51,536 nt of DNA from Bacillota bacterium (GTDB taxonomy: Bacteria > Bacillota > Sulfobacillia > Sulfobacillales > JAIMBI01): NCBI GenBank assembly GCA_021846565.1, contig JAJZWS010000017.1, positions 1 to 51,536 of the forward strand. The letters are read 5' to 3'. The notes beneath the pieces were generated by a model. That model was not told the DNA's origin and did no database searches. It worked only from the letters and a program-made list of their open reading frames with translations. The translations under genes and the position numbers were made by a program. Positions 518-41,599 of this stretch are shown here, in pieces. Numbering within the stretch: position 1 is the first letter of the stretch; every line of letters begins with the position of its first letter.

Positions 518-1159
518 TTAGAACTTTCGGTTCATCACGTGGGGCAGCATGCGGGCAGCGGCCTTTTGAATGCGGGCCTGGCGGGCCGTCGACATCTTGC
601 CAGCCGCTACCAGCTTGGACAGCCGAGCGTTCACGGCGTTTTGGAGTGCCTGCTGCAGAGCCGCCGGGCTGCTGCCGTGCTGGGTCGCCAGCTGCGAGAG
701 CGTGGTGCCTCCCTTGAGGGCCGTGCGCACGGCGCCGGGTGTCATGTGCAGCGTCGTCCCGGTCGTGTGGAGCATCAGGGGGTGGAACGCCCGTGTCCAC
801 CACCGATGTGCTGCGACCACGCGCCACTGGGCATGCGCGATGCGGTGCATTCCCCGCGCCGTCTGCTGGGCGGTCAAATGATGCGCCTTCGCGTACGTCT
901 GAAACTGACTGGACTTGACGCTGGCCACATCGCTTCGGAGCGTCGTGGCCGAAATGCCCAGCTTGCCGGCGAGCTGGGCCCAGAAGCCCGAGGGCGCGCT
1001 TGAGGGGCTGGCGGCAAACACCGCGCCGCCGATGGCGACAGCGGCGGCGGTGCCGACACCCACGGCCACCAGCGCCCATCGGCGGCGGAGCGCGCCGAGG
1101 GTGCGCTGGAGTTGGCTCATGGGGCGGGGGCCGTGGTTCGGTTCGTTCGAATGCTGCAA
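518..1159 (-). CDS. small exported or membrane-anchored protein of unknown function, last gene of a two-component operon
   Basis: The product has 213 residues. A basic N-terminus is followed by one hydrophobic segment (about residues 30-50, WALVAVGVGTAAAVAIGGAVF), so it is probably a signal peptide or anchor. The remainder is Ala/Gln/His-rich and helical, with a C-terminal pattern (GGTTLSQLATQHGSSPAALQQ then SKLVAAGKMSTARQARI) seen in many uncharacterised secreted proteins of Gram-positives and Chloroflexi. The TTG at 1157-1159 is preferred because GGAGGTGA (1166-1173) sits 6 nt upstream; an internal ATG gives a form 13 residues shorter. It lies 70 nt downstream of the sensor kinase in the same direction, so it may be a target or accessory of that system. 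No catalytic motif is visible. Confidence 0.75.
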   Translation of the reverse strand: MQHSNEPNHGPRPMSQLQRTLGALRRRWALVAVGVGTAAAVAIGGAVFAASPSSAPSGFWAQLAGKLGISATTLRSDVASVKSSQFQTYAKAHHLTAQQTARGMHRIAHAQWRVVAAHRWWTRAFHPLMLHTTGTTLHMTPGAVRTALKGGTTLSQLATQHGSSPAALQQALQNAVNARLSKLVAAGKMSTARQARIQKAAARMLPHVMNRKF

Positions 1160-1229
1160 ACCGTGTCACCTCCACGCGCATCGTGCCCCGGGGAGATTAA
1201 GACATTGTCAAGCGATGATAAAGTGCTCG

Positions 1230-2630
1230 TTAAGATTGTCTTGATGCCGGCCCGCCAGCGGGCGGGGCCGGTGGTTCGCCCGGCGGTCCCGCCGGCAGCA
1301 CCACGAAGAACGTCGCACCATGTCCCGGCGTGGATTCGACCCCGATGCGACCGCCGTGCAGCTCCACCAGCTCTTTTGCAATGGCGAGCCCGAGGCCAAA
1401 CCCGCCGGTGCCGCGGCTTCGCGAGGAGTCCACCCGATACAGGCGGTCAAAAACATGCGCCTGGTGCTCCGGGGCAATGCCGGGGCCGTTGTCGGCCACG
1501 GTAACCCGTACTTCCCGGGCTGGGGCGTCGGCCTCGACGCGAATGGCCACGCGCCCACCATCCGGCGTGTACTTGACGGCGTTGCCCACCAGGTTGCCCA
1601 GCACTTGGCGCAGACGCCGGGCGTCGCCCCATACCGAAGGAACGGGGATTCGGTCTACCGTGAGGTGAATGTGGCGCTGGTCCGCCGACCGCCGCCATTC
1701 CGTGCCCACGTCCACCGCCAACTGAGCCAGGTCCACTTCGGACCGCTGGAGGTAAAGCTGGTGGGCGTCGGCCAGCGCCATGTCCTGCAGCTCATCCACC
1801 AACTGCGCAACGATGCGGGCCTGCTGCTGAGCCACCGCCAGCGGATCGGCGCCGGGGATGTCGACCCCTTCGCGCCACGCTTCCAGGTATCCCTCCAAGA
1901 TGGCCAGCGGCGTGCGCAGCTCGTGCGCCACGTCCGCCATAAGGCGCTGGCGGTCCGCCTCGCCCGATTCCAGGGCGCTGGCCATGCGGTTGAAGTCGTC
2001 CGCCAGGGCGCGCACCTCCGCCGGGCCTTCGGGCGCCACGCGGTAGCTCCACTCACCCGCGCCCAGGCGGCGCGCTCCCTGCGCAATGTGCTGGAGTTGC
2101 CGCACGATGCGGTCCCCGACCAGGCTCGAGAGCAGCAGCGAGGCCAGAAAACCCACCAGCGACGCCACCAGGAGCGAGGAGAGCAAGCTCCGGATCACGG
2201 GGGACAGCCGCGGTCCCAGGGTGGGGAGATGCGACAGCACCACCCGAATATGCGGGCCAAGGGCATAGAGCCGCACGGTGGTCGCGACCGTCGAGCCGCC
2301 ATGGCGCCCGCCCACCGGTGGCTGTGCGCGGTACAGCACGTGGCCCGCCTCGGTTTCGATGGTGATGACGCTGCCCAGCAGCGTGGCGTAATGCGCGGCC
2401 GCCGCCTGGAGGCCGGGTTCCCCCTGGCGGCGGTACTGCTCGGCCAGCGCCCCGCCCACCCGATGCACCATCGCGAGGCTGCGCCGGTGGTTGTACGCGG
2501 TCAGCTGGCTGGCGGTCGCATGCTGGACGAACAGCCCCACGACGCCCAAGGCTACCGCGGTCGATGCCATAGCGGCCAAAAATAACTGCGCCCAGAGCGA
2601 CAGGCGGCGGCGCGGCGCCGCGCCGGTCAT
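1230..2630 (-). CDS. two-component sensor histidine kinase, HAMP-containing
   Basis: The product has 466 residues and is a membrane sensor kinase that would autophosphorylate and pass phosphate to the response regulator encoded just upstream. It has a first membrane helix (about 14-35), an extracytoplasmic sensor region (about 36-142), a second helix (about 146-170), a HAMP linker, a HisKA helix with phospho-acceptor His236 in DVAHELRTPLA, and an ATPase domain with an N-box (NLVGNAVKYTPDGG), G1 box (DNGPGIAPEH), F box and G2 box (GFGLGLAIAKELVELHGG). All catalytic boxes are present. The start overlaps the regulator stop by 4 nt, indicating translational coupling. The signal cannot be read from the sequence; the short variable sensor region is typical of envelope-stress or metal kinases. 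Confidence 0.95.
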   Translation of the reverse strand: MTGAAPRRRLSLWAQLFLAAMASTAVALGVVGLFVQHATASQLTAYNHRRSLAMVHRVGGALAEQYRRQGEPGLQAAAAHYATLLGSVITIETEAGHVLYRAQPPVGGRHGGSTVATTVRLYALGPHIRVVLSHLPTLGPRLSPVIRSLLSSLLVASLVGFLASLLLSSLVGDRIVRQLQHIAQGARRLGAGEWSYRVAPEGPAEVRALADDFNRMASALESGEADRQRLMADVAHELRTPLAILEGYLEAWREGVDIPGADPLAVAQQQARIVAQLVDELQDMALADAHQLYLQRSEVDLAQLAVDVGTEWRRSADQRHIHLTVDRIPVPSVWGDARRLRQVLGNLVGNAVKYTPDGGRVAIRVEADAPAREVRVTVADNGPGIAPEHQAHVFDRLYRVDSSRSRGTGGFGLGLAIAKELVELHGGRIGVESTPGHGATFFVVLPAGPPGEPPAPPAGGPASRQS

Positions 2631-3346
2631 GACGGCAGCGGGGCCCCGCCACCGCCGTCTTCGGGGGGCTCGAAGCGATAGCCGACGCCGTACACCGTAT
2701 GGATGGGGCTGGGCCGGAGTCCTAGCTTCTTGCGCAGGTTCGCGACGTGCACGTCGACGTTGCGGTCATAGCCTAAAAAGTCCGTCCCGACGGCCCCATC
2801 CAGCAGCTGCTGGCGGGTGAGGGTCCAGCCCGGGCGGTGAATCAAGAGCGTCAGGAGGCGAAACTCCGTCGGGGTGAGCGTGATGGGCTGGCCCGCCACC
2901 TCCACGAGATGCCGGTCCTCATCCACCGTGATGCCGGCTACGGTCCGCGTGCGGGATGCCGGTGGCCCGCCCCGCACGCGCCGCAGGATTGCCTCCACGC
3001 GCAACACCACCTCGGCTGGGGAAAACGGCTTGGTCACGTAGTCGTCCGCGCCGAGCTGCAGGCCGCGCAGGCGGTCCGCCTCGGTGCTTTTGGCGGTCAA
3101 CAGCAGCACGGGCGGTGCCGCCCCATCGTTCTGAAGGCGCTCCAGTACCGAAAAGCCGTCCAGCTTGGGCAATAGGACGTCCAGGATGACCAGTCCTGGG
3201 GTGGAGTCGCGCAGACCGGCCAGGGCCGTGGCCCCATCTTCGTAAAGCTGCACGGCAAAGCCCGCGCGCTGGAGGTACGCCGCCAGCAACTGGCGGAGCG
3301 CGGGTTCGTCCTCGACGACGGCCACGACGGGCTTGGCGGTGCTCAT
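2627..3346 (-). CDS. OmpR/PhoB-family response regulator
   Basis: The product has 239 residues. An N-terminal receiver domain (about 5-120) carries acidic residues E12/D13, phospho-acceptor Asp56 in VILDVLLPKLDG, the switch Thr in LLLTAKS and the conserved Lys in DDYVTKPFSPAE. A C-terminal winged helix (about 145-230) has the family pattern LTPTEFRLL and DVHVANLRKKLG. It is the first gene of a three-gene operon with the kinase and a small exported protein. A candidate -10 box ends only 6 nt before the ATG and no good ribosome binding site is visible, so the message may be leaderless. Confidence 0.95.
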   Translation of the reverse strand: MSTAKPVVAVVEDEPALRQLLAAYLQRAGFAVQLYEDGATALAGLRDSTPGLVILDVLLPKLDGFSVLERLQNDGAAPPVLLLTAKSTEADRLRGLQLGADDYVTKPFSPAEVVLRVEAILRRVRGGPPASRTRTVAGITVDEDRHLVEVAGQPITLTPTEFRLLTLLIHRPGWTLTRQQLLDGAVGTDFLGYDRNVDVHVANLRKKLGLRPSPIHTVYGVGYRFEPPEDGGGGAPLPS

Positions 3347-3384: not shown

Positions 3385-3468
3385 TGGAATGTTAAGCTCA
3401 GGATCATCGAGGGTCCGCGGGGCCGGCACGCAAAGCGTCGGGACCGGTGGCGGGCGGGGAGGTGCCCC

Positions 3469-3849
3469 GTGAAGTTGGCGTATGCGGTGGTGCGCGTCCG
3501 CGACTTGCCGCGGATGGCCGCCTGGTACGAGAGGCTCCTGGGTCAGCCGCCCGATCGGCGGCGCACCGTGGCCGAGCTGGCAACCGATCCGTGGGTGCAG
3601 TTCACCTTCGTGGGCGGTGCCGCCCTGGCGTTGCAGGGTGTGGATCCGCTGGCGGACGTGGCCTTTGGCGGGGCATGGGACCGCGGGGCGGTCTACCTGG
3701 CGTGCCCCGTGATGCAGGTGGTCTACCGCCTGCGCGCGGCCGATGAGCGCGTCGAAGGGCCGGAGGTGGACGGTCCCCTGCTGCAAGCCGTCGTGGTGGA
3801 CCCAGAGGGAAACCGCGTGCGCCTGATAGAGTGGCTGTCGAACCCCTGA
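3469..3849 (+). CDS. VOC-superfamily (glyoxalase/bleomycin-resistance fold) protein
   Basis: The product has 126 residues, one VOC domain in length. It shows the typical opening strand and helix (YAVVRVRDLPRMAAWYERLLGQPP) and the closing strand VVVDPEGNRVRLIEW, where the final Glu is a usual metal ligand. The GTG start has a GGGGAGGTG ribosome binding site 5 nt upstream. The family ranges from glyoxalases to dioxygenases and antibiotic-binding proteins, and the substrate cannot be inferred. It stands alone between the two-component promoter and the UPF0173 gene. Confidence 0.8.
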   Translation: MKLAYAVVRVRDLPRMAAWYERLLGQPPDRRRTVAELATDPWVQFTFVGGAALALQGVDPLADVAFGGAWDRGAVYLACPVMQVVYRLRAADERVEGPEVDGPLLQAVVVDPEGNRVRLIEWLSNP

Positions 3850-37016: not shown

Positions 37017-37304
37017 ATGGCCGGGACAGGGGAGGCGATTCCGATGAGTGGGGGCGAGGCCGCGGCATCAAGAGTGGACCTGTATTCTCATGTGGGCTGC
37101 TGGGGTGGGGAGGCGGCCATCGCGTGGTTGACGGAGGCGCGCATCCCCTTCCGGGTGCATGACATCGGTCAGGACCCGGCGGCCCGTGCGGCGTGGCGGT
37201 CGCTGGGGGCGCCGCCGTCCCCGGTCGTGGTCGTGGACGGCCACATCCTCCTCGGATTTGACGCCAAGACGGTTCAGGCCCTGCTGGCGGGGGGAGCAGC
37301 GTAA
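37017..37304 (+). CDS. glutaredoxin-like protein with a single active-site cysteine
   Basis: The product has 95 residues. The thioredoxin-fold opening is VDLYSHVGCWGGEAAIAWL, where the active-site motif is C-W-G-G instead of CxxC or CGFS, then a Grx-type cis-Pro region (APPSPVVVVDGHILLGFDA). It would act as a monothiol redox or binding protein in the cytosol. The ATG has AAGGAGAGG 5 nt upstream. First gene of a seven-gene operon, overlapping the Crp/Fnr gene by one base. A second Trx-fold protein and a candidate selenoprotein redoxin are encoded further down. Confidence 0.85.
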   Translation: MAGTGEAIPMSGGEAAASRVDLYSHVGCWGGEAAIAWLTEARIPFRVHDIGQDPAARAAWRSLGAPPSPVVVVDGHILLGFDAKTVQALLAGGAA

Positions 37305-38035
37305 TGCCAAACAGCGAAGCCGAGCGCACCGCCGTGGACCGTCGTGAGAAACTTGGTTATCTGCGGCGCATCGATCTGCTGCAAGAACTCAGCGCGGAGG
37401 ACCTCCAGGCCATTGACGCGCTGGTGCCGCTGATTTCCTATGGCGCGGGCACCGTACTGTACGAGCCAGGCCGGCGACTGAACCGCCTGTTTTTTCTGAA
37501 GCGGGGGCAGGTGCGGCTGTACCAGCTTTCGCCGGATGGCAAGCAGCTGACGCTCGCCCTGCTGAGGGCGGGCAACATTTTCGGCGAGACCGACACCTTT
37601 GCCACGGGCGCAGGCACCTGCTATGCGGAGGCTCTCACGGACGCACTGGTGTGCACGATGACCACCGCCGACCTGATGGCGTTTATGATGAAGCGACCGC
37701 GGGTCGCGTTGCGCCTGATTCAGATTCTGTCCCGCGAGCTCAAGAGCGCCCAGGAACTGGCGGCGACTTTAGCGCTGCGGGACGTTCGCACGCGAGTGCT
37801 GCATCTGCTCACCAAATTGGCGGCGGAATACGGCGAGTGCCGCGACGGGGAGTTCACGGCGCTGGATCTCAAACTGACACACCAAGATCTGGCGCACATG
37901 GTCGGGGCCACGCGGGAGTCCGTCAGTGCGGTGCTGGGCGATTTGGGGCGCAAGGCTGTCGTGCAAACCAGCCGCGGCCGGCTGGCCATTCGCTGCGAGG
38001 AGGCGGCTCGCCTCTTGGAAGGCGACTTGCCGTAG
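37304..38035 (+). CDS. Crp/Fnr-family transcriptional regulator
   Basis: The product has 243 residues. A cyclic-nucleotide-binding fold (about 25-140; FLKRGQVRLYQLSPDGKQLTLALLRAGNIFGE) is followed by a long helix and a winged helix-turn-helix (about 165-230; LTHQDLAHMVGATRESVSAVLGDL). No Fnr-type N-terminal cysteine cluster is seen, so oxygen sensing through Fe-S is unlikely; the effector is unknown. It overlaps the preceding gene by one base (TAATG). A Crp-type site lies ahead of the operon. Confidence 0.94.
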   Translation: MPNSEAERTAVDRREKLGYLRRIDLLQELSAEDLQAIDALVPLISYGAGTVLYEPGRRLNRLFFLKRGQVRLYQLSPDGKQLTLALLRAGNIFGETDTFATGAGTCYAEALTDALVCTMTTADLMAFMMKRPRVALRLIQILSRELKSAQELAATLALRDVRTRVLHLLTKLAAEYGECRDGEFTALDLKLTHQDLAHMVGATRESVSAVLGDLGRKAVVQTSRGRLAIRCEEAARLLEGDLP

Positions 38036-38712: not shown

Positions 38713-38798
38713 GCGAGGCGTCTGACGGCCCGACCGCCGGACCCTCCCCGGGCCGCAAATCCTGCGACCAATCCGCGATGCCACAAGGAGGTCATTGG

Positions 38799-40245
38799 AT
38801 GCCGGATACCGCGACGACGTCCCGTGAAGTGTTTTACGAACTGACGCGCAGCCTCTGCCCCGAGTGCCGGCGCGTCATCGATGCCAAGGTGCTGCTGCGA
38901 GACCACCAGGTGTACCTGCGCAAGCGGTGTCCGGACCACGGCTGGTTCGAAGGGAAAATCTACGGGGATGCGGACCAGTATGTGGCGGCGGCCCGCTTCA
39001 ACAAGCCCGGCACCATCCCACAGACCTACACGACAGCCATTGACCGAGGGTGTCCCGACGACTGCGGGCTTTGTCCCGATCACGCCCAGCACATCTGCGT
39101 GGGCATCGTCGAGGTCAACACCGCGTGCAACATGTCGTGCCCGCTCTGCTTTGCCAACGCGGGTCAGGGCTACAATCTGACGTTTGCCGAGGTTGAGGGG
39201 ATTTTGGACCACTTCGTGGCGACGGAGGGCCACCCGGAGGTGGTGCAATTTTCCGGGGGGGGAGCCCACCATCCATCCCGACATCATCCGCATGGTGGAA
39301 GCGGCTCAGGCGCGCGGCATCCGTCAGGTCATGATCAATACGAACGGCAAACGCCTGGCGGACGACGACGCTTTTCTGGCGCAGGTGGCCCAGTTAAAGC
39401 CCTCATTGTACTTTCAGTTCGATGGGTTCGCTCGGAACACCTACGCCACCTTGCGGGGGGAGCCCGATCTTCTGTCCACCAAGTTGCGCGCCCTGGATCG
39501 GGTGGCCGAAGCTGGCTTGTCCGTCATCCTCGTGCCGGCGGTGGAGCAGGGCGTGAATCTCCACGAGGTGGGGCGCATCGTGGAGTTCGGGCTGACCCAT
39601 CCGGCGGTGCGGGGCATTAACTTTCAGCCAGCGTTTCACTCGGGGCGGCATCCGGATCACGATCCGCTCCAGCGGTTGACGATTCCCGACATCACTCGAG
39701 CGATTGCCGAGCAGACGGGTGGCCAGTTTCTGCAATCCGACTTCCTCCCCATCCCCTGTTGCTTCCCCACCTGCAATTCTGTCAGCTATGCGTTTACGAA
39801 TGGCGACGGAGTGCTGCCGCTGGCCCGGCTCATCAATCTGGAGAACTATCTCGACTACATAGCCAATCGCGTGCTGCCGGATCAGGACGCCATTCGGTCC
39901 GCCCTGGAAGCCCTGTGGTCGTCGGCCGCCGTGCCGGGTACGGCCAGCTTCGGCGCGGATGTGCTGCAGGCGTGTACGGTGTGCGGTATCACGGGGCCGC
40001 AGGATTTGGGAGCGGCGGGCAACTCGCTGTTTATGATCCTGCTCCAGGACTTTTTGGACCCCTGGACGTTCACCCAGAAAAACGTGATGAAGTGCTGCAA
40101 GGCGGTGCTGCTGCCGGACGGCAAGCAGATCCCGTTCTGCGCGTACAACAACGTGGGCTATCGGGAACTGGCGCGCGCACAACTGGCGCGGCGCCGTCGG
40201 GGATCCGCCACCCCGCTGGTGTTTGAGGGAGGTCCGGTCCAATGA
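38799..40245 (+). CDS. radical SAM enzyme of the MJ0619/tetraether-synthase-like family, with a frameshift in a G8 tract
   Basis: Corrected for one extra base, the product is about 481 residues. The N-terminal domain has the family pattern of Cys motifs: SLCPECRRVIDAKV (C20, C23), RKRCPDHGWFEGKI (C44) and RGCPDDCGLCPDHAQHIC (C85, C89, C92, C100). The radical SAM cluster motif is C110/C114/C117 in ACNMSCPLCFAN. The GGEP motif that binds SAM falls exactly at the frameshift: TTTTCC is followed by eight G (39255-39262), while seven would give FSGGEPTIHPD. Downstream the frame continues intact (IRQVMINTNGKRLA, CCFPTCNS, MKCCKAVLLPDGKQIPFCAYNN). MJ0619 relatives join lipid chains into tetraethers or modify lipids; a different substrate is possible. 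The ATG at 38799 has AAGGAGG upstream. It overlaps the methyltransferase gene by 4 nt. Confidence 0.82.
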
Positions 40246-41033
40246 TGCGGGAGGATCCCAGCGTGATCAAGCAGTGTTGTGCAGCGGCGTACGCGACCCC
40301 GTGGGTCGCGCTGCTGCTGGGGGAGTCCTGGCATCCGGGGGGCTTGGATCTGACGGAGCACTTGGGACGCGCGCTCGCCCTCACCCCGCGCGATGTGGTG
40401 GCCGACGTGGCGGCGGGGGAGGGAGCCTCCGCCCGGCACCTGGCGGCGCGCTTTGGGTGCGAGGTGTGGGCCCTCGACCTCGGCGAGGCTCAGGTGGCTC
40501 GGGGGCAATCCCGCGATGCCCGCCAGGGCGGCGCTCCAGTCCGCTTCCAGCAGGGCGACGCCGAAGCGCTGCCCTGGGCGGCGGGCAGTGTCGACGTGGT
40601 GCTGTGCGAGTGTGCGCTCTGCACGTTTCCCAGCCCGGAGACCGCGGTGCAGGAGTGGGCGCGGGTCGTAAAGCCGGGTGGGCGGATTGGGCTGACGGAT
40701 GTGACGCGCCGAGGTCCACTGCCCGCGGCCTTGGACAATCTGGCGGGCTGGGTGGGGTGCCTCGCGGGAGCCCGGCCCGTCGAGGCGTACGCGGATCTGC
40801 TGACGACCGCGGGGTTTCAGGTGCTTCGCCGCGAAGACCGCAGCGCGGACCTGAGTGTGCTGGTTGCGCGCATAGGGCAGGCGCTGCTTACGTGGTTGCA
40901 GTTCCAGGGCCCGGGGGCCTCTCTGGGGGGGTTGGACCGGGCGGCGGTCGAGGGCCTATGGGCGGCCATTCAGGAGGCGATTGGGCGTCACGAACTCGGG
41001 TACGCCCTCCTCACGGCTAGGCGCCCCGCATGA
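40242..41033 (+). CDS. class I SAM-dependent methyltransferase
   Basis: The product has 263 residues. Rossmann motif I is VVADVAAGEGASARHLAARFG, the acidic strand 2 end is VWALDLGEA, and later blocks are GDAEALPW, VVLCECALCTFPSP and GGRIGLTDVTRRG. The N-terminal signature IKQCCAAAYATPW...GESWHPGGLDLTEHL, with a Cys-Cys pair and HPGG, marks a subgroup I know only as uncharacterised methyltransferases, distantly like arsenite methyltransferases. Extra cysteines (CECALC) could bind metal or a metalloid. The ATG overlaps the radical SAM stop and its own stop overlaps the redoxin start, so the three genes are translationally coupled. Confidence 0.88.
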   Translation: MMREDPSVIKQCCAAAYATPWVALLLGESWHPGGLDLTEHLGRALALTPRDVVADVAAGEGASARHLAARFGCEVWALDLGEAQVARGQSRDARQGGAPVRFQQGDAEALPWAAGSVDVVLCECALCTFPSPETAVQEWARVVKPGGRIGLTDVTRRGPLPAALDNLAGWVGCLAGARPVEAYADLLTTAGFQVLRREDRSADLSVLVARIGQALLTWLQFQGPGASLGGLDRAAVEGLWAAIQEAIGRHELGYALLTARRPA

Positions 41034-41599
41034 GTCAGGGCACCTCGACGGGCGGGCGCCTGGCGGCCGGCGACCCGGCGCCCGACTTTGACCTCGCGTC
41101 CGACGACGGTTCGCGGTTCCGGCTCAGCGCCGCGCCGCCGGGATGGTACCTCCTCATCTTTCTTCGTCATCAGTACTGACTGTCGTGCCTCGAGCACGCG
41201 GCGGAGGTCCGCCGCCAGTACGACGCATTCACCCGCCTAAGCTGTCGGGTGGTGGTGGTGACCATGTTGGAACCCAGCGAGCTGGTGCGCTTTCGCGAGG
41301 ACCATCGCATGCCCTTTGTGGTATGCGGCGATCCCGCATGCGCGGTGTATCGGCGGTATGGGCTCCAGCGGGGCGGAGTTCTCCAGGTGTTCCGTTGGCG
41401 GTCGCTTCGGCCCTACGTGGTGGCTGGCGGGCGCGGGATGCGGGCAGCCTGGTCAGCTCGGGGCGATGATCTCCTGCAGCTCGGGGGAGACTTTTTGGTG
41501 GACCCGGCAGGTCGGCTCAGGATGGCCTATTACAGCGAGGCCCCCGACGACCGCCCGGCGACGGCCCAGTTGCTGGCGGCCATCACCGGCGAGCGTTAG
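41030..41599 (+). CDS. probable selenocysteine-containing redoxin (AhpC/TSA-like), TGA read-through at codon 50
   Basis: Reading through one in-frame TGA (41177-41179) gives a continuous 189-residue redoxin. Before it: AAGDPAPDFDLASDDGSRFRL and YLLIFLRHQY. After it: LSCLEHAAEVRRQYDAF, then PSELVRFREDHRMPFVVCGDPACAVYRRYGL and FLVDPAGRLRMAYY. In relatives the motif after FLRH is CxxC with a following H, and the TGA takes the place of the first Cys (U50-L-S-C53). The fold strand pattern and family features continue normally on both sides, so a pseudogene is less likely than recoding. A SECIS-like hairpin begins 18 nt downstream. The ATG overlaps the methyltransferase stop (ATGA). A plain nonsense mutation or base-call error (TGC/TGT to TGA) is the alternative. 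Confidence 0.75.
41177..41215 (+). promoter_or_regulatory. in-frame TGA and bacterial SECIS-like hairpin
   Basis: After the TGA (41177-41179), GCGGCGG (41198-41204) and CCGCCGC (41209-41215) form a perfect 7-bp stem with loop AGGT. The loop core AGGTC is the same as in the E. coli fdhF SECIS apex, and the GGT begins 26 nt after the TGA, within the range known for bacterial SECIS elements. A smaller stem CGTGC/GCACG (41184-41198) lies between. Confidence 0.65.

Follow-up and report, generated by a model that had tools for sequence, protein, structure and literature searches.

A SelL-related redoxin gene with an in-frame TGA and a covarying SECIS hairpin, next to radical SAM and methyltransferase genes in a Bacillota bacterium

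Prx-like thiol:disulfide oxidoreductases with an AhpC-TSA domain (PF00578) and a UxxC or UxxU motif are described selenoproteins (PMC13188914, PMC9312934), listed as 'Prx-like 1' in PMC2398784. SelL, which occurs in aquatic eukaryotes and marine bacteria, forms a diselenide bond (PMC2397514). The window analysed here, the whole stretch of 51,536 nucleotides from a Bacillota bacterium, contains a redoxin gene for which a selenoprotein product had been proposed from the DNA letters alone. This proposal is strongly supported by the selenocysteine (Sec) machinery of the genome, a family match, the distribution of Sec and Cys at the TGA column and a covarying SECIS hairpin. The best explanation of these comparative data is that positions 41030–41599 in all likelihood encode a selenoprotein that belongs, within the Prx-fold oxidoreductases, to the SelL-related branch, its UGA being decoded via the hairpin. 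The features of the locus are as follows.

38778–40245, + strand: Tes/TrsS-like radical SAM gene, split between two frames by an additional G in the G8 run at 39255–39262; a single frame in relatives
40242–41033, + strand: ArsM-like or DVU_1556-like SAM methyltransferase gene, assigned by NCBIfam matches; ATGA overlap with the redoxin gene
41030–41599, + strand: gene for a predicted SelL-related redox selenoprotein with a Prx fold; 189 residues, among them Sec50; stop codon TAG at 41597–41599
41177–41179, + strand: UGA codon, read as Sec, U50 of the U-L-S-C motif; distinct family sequences have TGA (32) or Cys (12) in the same column
41186–41188, + strand: codon for C53, the predicted partner of Sec50 and, by alignment, the counterpart of the peroxidatic Cys in BCP-type peroxiredoxins
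41198–41215, + strand: putative bacterial SECIS, a hairpin with 7 bp in the stem and AGGU as its loop, which lies 25 nt past the UGA; assigned by register conservation and covariation

The redoxin frame and its family

Translation from the ATG at 41030 gives one continuous frame in which the TGA at codon 50 is the only in-frame stop before the terminal TAG. The sequence-only reading had described the frame in this way, and it was also right in placing the TGA at the first position of a C-x-x-C-type motif (FLRHQY-U-L-S-C) and in seeing the start as coupled to the upstream ORF, the stop of which overlaps the redoxin ATG as ATGA at 41030–41033. The codon-usage signal of the frame is +0.29 bits per codon before the TGA and +0.21 after it, the other five frames all being negative, and GC3 is 0.84 and 0.80 on the two sides. 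Without read-through of the TGA, the longest ORF that this frame offers begins at an internal GTG and spans 41249–41599; ordinary stop-to-stop calling would thus truncate the gene, and the selenocysteine reading corrects the gene model.

The read-through product matches Pfam AhpC-TSA and, over residues 16–184, the NCBIfam model NF040769, "SelL-related redox protein", with 138.3 bits against a cut-off of 120. To collect relatives we drew on genomes of the window's phylum and on those of the phylum to which an actinobacterial MAG belongs, and added six loci of GTDB genomes. A single-sequence search in the window's phylum returned few relatives, while the family profile returned many more in the actinobacterial phylum, where 48 of 346 genomes have NF040769-family matches, most of them with exactly one TGA. 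Two genomes (G241 and G376) carry two neighbouring UGA-containing Prx-like genes, one with ULLC or UMLG and one with UASC (L048, 6769–7811; L049, 6609–7641).

An alignment with homologues had been proposed as a check for Cys or Sec at the codon-50 column, and of 44 distinct sequences 32, the window's among them, have TGA there and 12 have Cys. In the tree, the window protein sits among the Sec members, its nearest TGA-bearing relatives being actinobacterial. It has a branch length of 1.78 versus a median of 0.55 and at most about 37% identity to the sampled members. By these sequence comparisons the redoxin is a new gene of the curated family NF040769 and not a new selenoprotein family, so that the earlier label of a new selenoprotein holds for the gene and fails for the family. 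To the known family and the known Prx-fold UxxC kind this gene brings a new species, a new neighbourhood and clear SECIS evidence from comparison; it also adds a member outside Actinomycetota, the home of most TGA members found here.

Selenocysteine machinery and the SECIS hairpin

We searched the genome to which the window belongs (134 contigs, 3.42 Mb in total, 96% complete) family by family for the Sec machinery, the absence of which had been named as grounds for rejecting the selenoprotein reading. All four components are present: tRNA-Sec (selC) with 67.8 bits against a gathering score of 47, selA with 511 bits, selB with 300 bits and selD with 350 bits. The frame of selD (G000:C53:6178-7104, L050) itself contains a TGA, at the usual position in U-G-C-K (SG-U-GCK); the hairpin behind it conforms to the bSECIS rules, and the selD product, judged from the sequence, is a probable selenoprotein. 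Given the machinery and the TGA-bearing selD, the genome very probably uses selenocysteine. Among relatives, tRNA-Sec is present in all but one of the tested genomes with a TGA member, the exception being a 2.0 Mb MAG (G405, L042) that may be incomplete; the genome of one Cys-bearing relative (L047, G409) has no tRNA-Sec match.

The hairpin downstream of the redoxin TGA was found as it had been described, a perfect 7-bp stem with an AGGT loop (GCGGCGG-AGGT-CCGCCGC, every pair Watson–Crick), at a distance from the TGA of 25 nt to the loop and 26 nt to GGT. Published criteria for bacterial SECIS elements ask for a loop of 3–9 nt, a stem of 4–16 bp, a G within the first two loop positions and 16–37 nt from the UGA (PMC13188914). 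Applied by script to the hairpins of the window and its relatives, they accept the window hairpin (7 bp, loop AGGU, 25 nt). Of all window positions, 0.19% have a contiguous 7-bp stem in exactly the same register, and 7 of 51,476 have one that also carries an NGNU loop. As a stand-alone test the free energy of the hairpin is not significant (z −1.34); since the DNA is 67% GC, its folding energy is unremarkable, and the proof rests on comparison with relatives.

This comparison separates Sec from Cys members. An in-register hairpin, with at least 6 of 7 pairs and an NGNU loop, follows the codon in 25 of 32 TGA genes versus none of 12 Cys genes (Fisher p 2.4e-6, a value that is indicative only, as are the other SECIS p-values, because the family sequences are related by descent). 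Most of these in-register TGA genes carry the loop AGUU rather than AGGU. Two more TGA genes have a shifted, covarying hairpin, CCAUCU-CGUGA-AGAUGG in L077 and ACCACCU-CGUGA-AGGUGGU in L086. Stem covariation scores 0.434, versus 0.201 for shuffled sequences and at most 0.198 for slid partners, with 26 double-change cells. The codon under the loop is TTG in 24 of 32 Sec genes and mainly CTG in Cys genes. The same difference is seen between two tree sisters that are nearly identical in protein sequence at this site: the Cys member L083 lacks the stem and has CTG where the Sec member L085 has TTG. The earlier SECIS claim thus stands, the hairpin being conserved with covariation in TGA relatives and absent from Cys homologues, and the combined pattern of register, covariation and Sec versus Cys distribution leaves little doubt that the codon is one for selenocysteine.

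The unremarkable hairpin energy would also fit a plain nonsense mutation in a Cys redoxin, in which case the gene would be a pseudogene and the hairpin would have arisen by chance in GC-rich DNA. We regard this as highly improbable, given that 31 other distinct sequences have TGA in the same column, that the SECIS lies in the same register with covariation and that the genome has complete Sec machinery. A sequencing or assembly error, TGA standing for TGC or TGT, is just as improbable; the contig may indeed carry a homopolymer error nearby (39255–39262), but a substitution would have to strike the exact Sec column, where most sampled members have TGA, and the site is followed by a SECIS, which is missing from Cys members.

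Upstream genes and loss of the cassette in a relative

The redoxin gene is translationally coupled to the methyltransferase and radical SAM genes. The radical SAM gene is split into the frames 38778–39617 and 39184–40245. The G8 run falls at the SGGEP codons, which are in frame in the seven relatives examined; homopolymers are a usual place for assembly errors, and the frameshift could be such an error, phase variation or a real lesion. Against TrsS (NF045646, cut-off 490) the two pieces score 180.7 and 132.3 bits, and against Tes (cut-off 450) 177.2 and 121.6 bits. The methyltransferase falls narrowly under the cut-off of 155 for the DVU_1556 methyltransferase (NF045667), with 149.9 bits. Its full-length relatives adjoin a radical SAM gene, or the end of one at a contig edge, in nine cases out of nine, and the pair recurs in Actinomycetota. 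At one locus (L114, G520:C5) the gene 3' of the pair resembles, by eye, one for a CDP-alcohol phosphatidyltransferase; this could point to lipid chemistry. Farther upstream in the window, 37017–37301 encodes a small glutaredoxin-like protein that has Cys (CWGG) and weakly resembles the Uxx-star (seleno)protein family; the gene adjoins a Crp/Fnr regulator gene at 37304–38032.

One of these nine relatives lies in a genome of another phylum (G490; L125, G490:C1:74500-80500, 533–3311) that has a radical SAM gene, a methyltransferase gene and a UGA-containing SelL-related redoxin gene in a row; this redoxin has its own hairpin and is frameshifted in that assembly. The trio of radical SAM enzyme, methyltransferase and selenoredoxin is therefore seen in two phyla, though rarely. 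The radical SAM and methyltransferase context was not found around about 40 other family loci, many of them with only ~1.5 kb per side, and the operon is therefore not typical of the redoxin family. The linkage offers a lead on the role of the uncharacterised SelL-related family. It is conceivable, although we would not favour it, that the trio constitutes an undescribed selenium-dependent biosynthetic or detoxification module, present in at least two phyla, with the selenoprotein as a dedicated redox partner.

In a genome of the same genus (G002), the stretch corresponding to about 38723–41367 is missing, and what is left of the redoxin is a frameshifted remnant of its C-terminus (L026, G002:C15:20000-27000, about 3421–3650); the downstream region with a peptidase gene is 94% identical to the window. 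Six further genomes of the GTDB family were searched, and an intact redoxin orthologue turned up in none. From this deletion and the lack of a close orthologue in the other genomes of genus and family we conclude that the cassette is dispensable in the group. In light of this dispensability, the radical SAM frameshift in the window could be real and the cassette might be losing function.

A decaying cassette would mean that the TGA is an ancestral Sec codon in an operon that is being lost in the lineage, the gene being little used or no longer functional. The radical SAM frame broken by the extra G, the deletion and frameshifted remnant in the related genome and the long branch of the window redoxin all point this way. 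The redoxin frame, however, is undamaged and retains R46, C53 and D101, the SECIS is a perfect 7-bp stem, and the frameshift in the G8 run could stem from an error in assembly, which together make decay of the window copy unlikely. Decayed copies in close relatives had been named beforehand as evidence that would count against a selenoprotein. The remnant partly answers to this description, but it reflects loss in that genome rather than decay in the window, and group-level loss leaves the Sec reading of the TGA as strong as before.

Active site and comparison with known systems

An AlphaFold2 model built from the family alignment has a pLDDT of 91.1 and a pTM of 0.88, and its best matches among solved structures are BCP and AhpE peroxiredoxins. 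Residue 50 immediately precedes a helix formed by residues 51–62. When aligned with BCP-type proteins, the redoxin has C53 at the position of the peroxidatic Cys of the TxxC motif and U50 at that of the Thr. The view that the TGA replaces the first catalytic Cys is thus correct in that Sec and Cys share the column, and needs amending in that the equivalent of the peroxidatic Cys is C53, not U50. The protein has the peroxiredoxin fold, with R46xxxU50xxC53 in place of the canonical PxxxTxxC active site; it thus combines a Prx fold with a UxxC pair in the manner of thioredoxins and is not a canonical peroxiredoxin.

These features suggest how the selenoprotein may be made and used. Ribosomes would reach the redoxin by translation from the coupled methyltransferase gene, and SelB with Sec-tRNA would bind the hairpin at 41198–41215 and decode the UGA at 41177–41179 as selenocysteine. 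The product would carry a selenol–thiol pair, U50-x-x-C53, opening the active-site helix of a thioredoxin/peroxiredoxin fold. Its selenolate would most likely act as a reductant towards a disulfide, a peroxide or a substrate, perhaps a metalloid one, that reacts with thiols, after which an Se–S bridge would form with C53 and be reset by a thiol reductant through selenol–thiol exchange. The redoxin probably serves the adjoining radical SAM and methyltransferase enzymes, a link that we infer.

For these upstream enzymes, the best NCBIfam matches are the TrsS and Tes radical SAM proteins and the DVU_1556-family methyltransferase, all below cut-off. For the redoxin, the closest described group is NF040769, with which it shares a score above the cut-off, the RHxx(U/C)xxC motif and the one in-frame TGA of most sampled relatives; it differs from most of these in standing behind a radical SAM and methyltransferase pair. 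With the Prx-like thiol:disulfide oxidoreductase selenoproteins it has in common an AhpC-TSA domain with UxxC, the listing of that group being a broad one. SelL is likewise a Prx-like protein with Sec in a redox motif, but uses a diselenide, whereas the window redoxin has UxxC, codon 53 being TGC and not the second U of the UxxU of SelL proper. The closest folds are those of the BCP/PrxQ and AhpE peroxiredoxins, from which the redoxin differs in having U50xxC53 for TxxC, R46 for the preceding Pro and an extra insertion at about residues 113–150.
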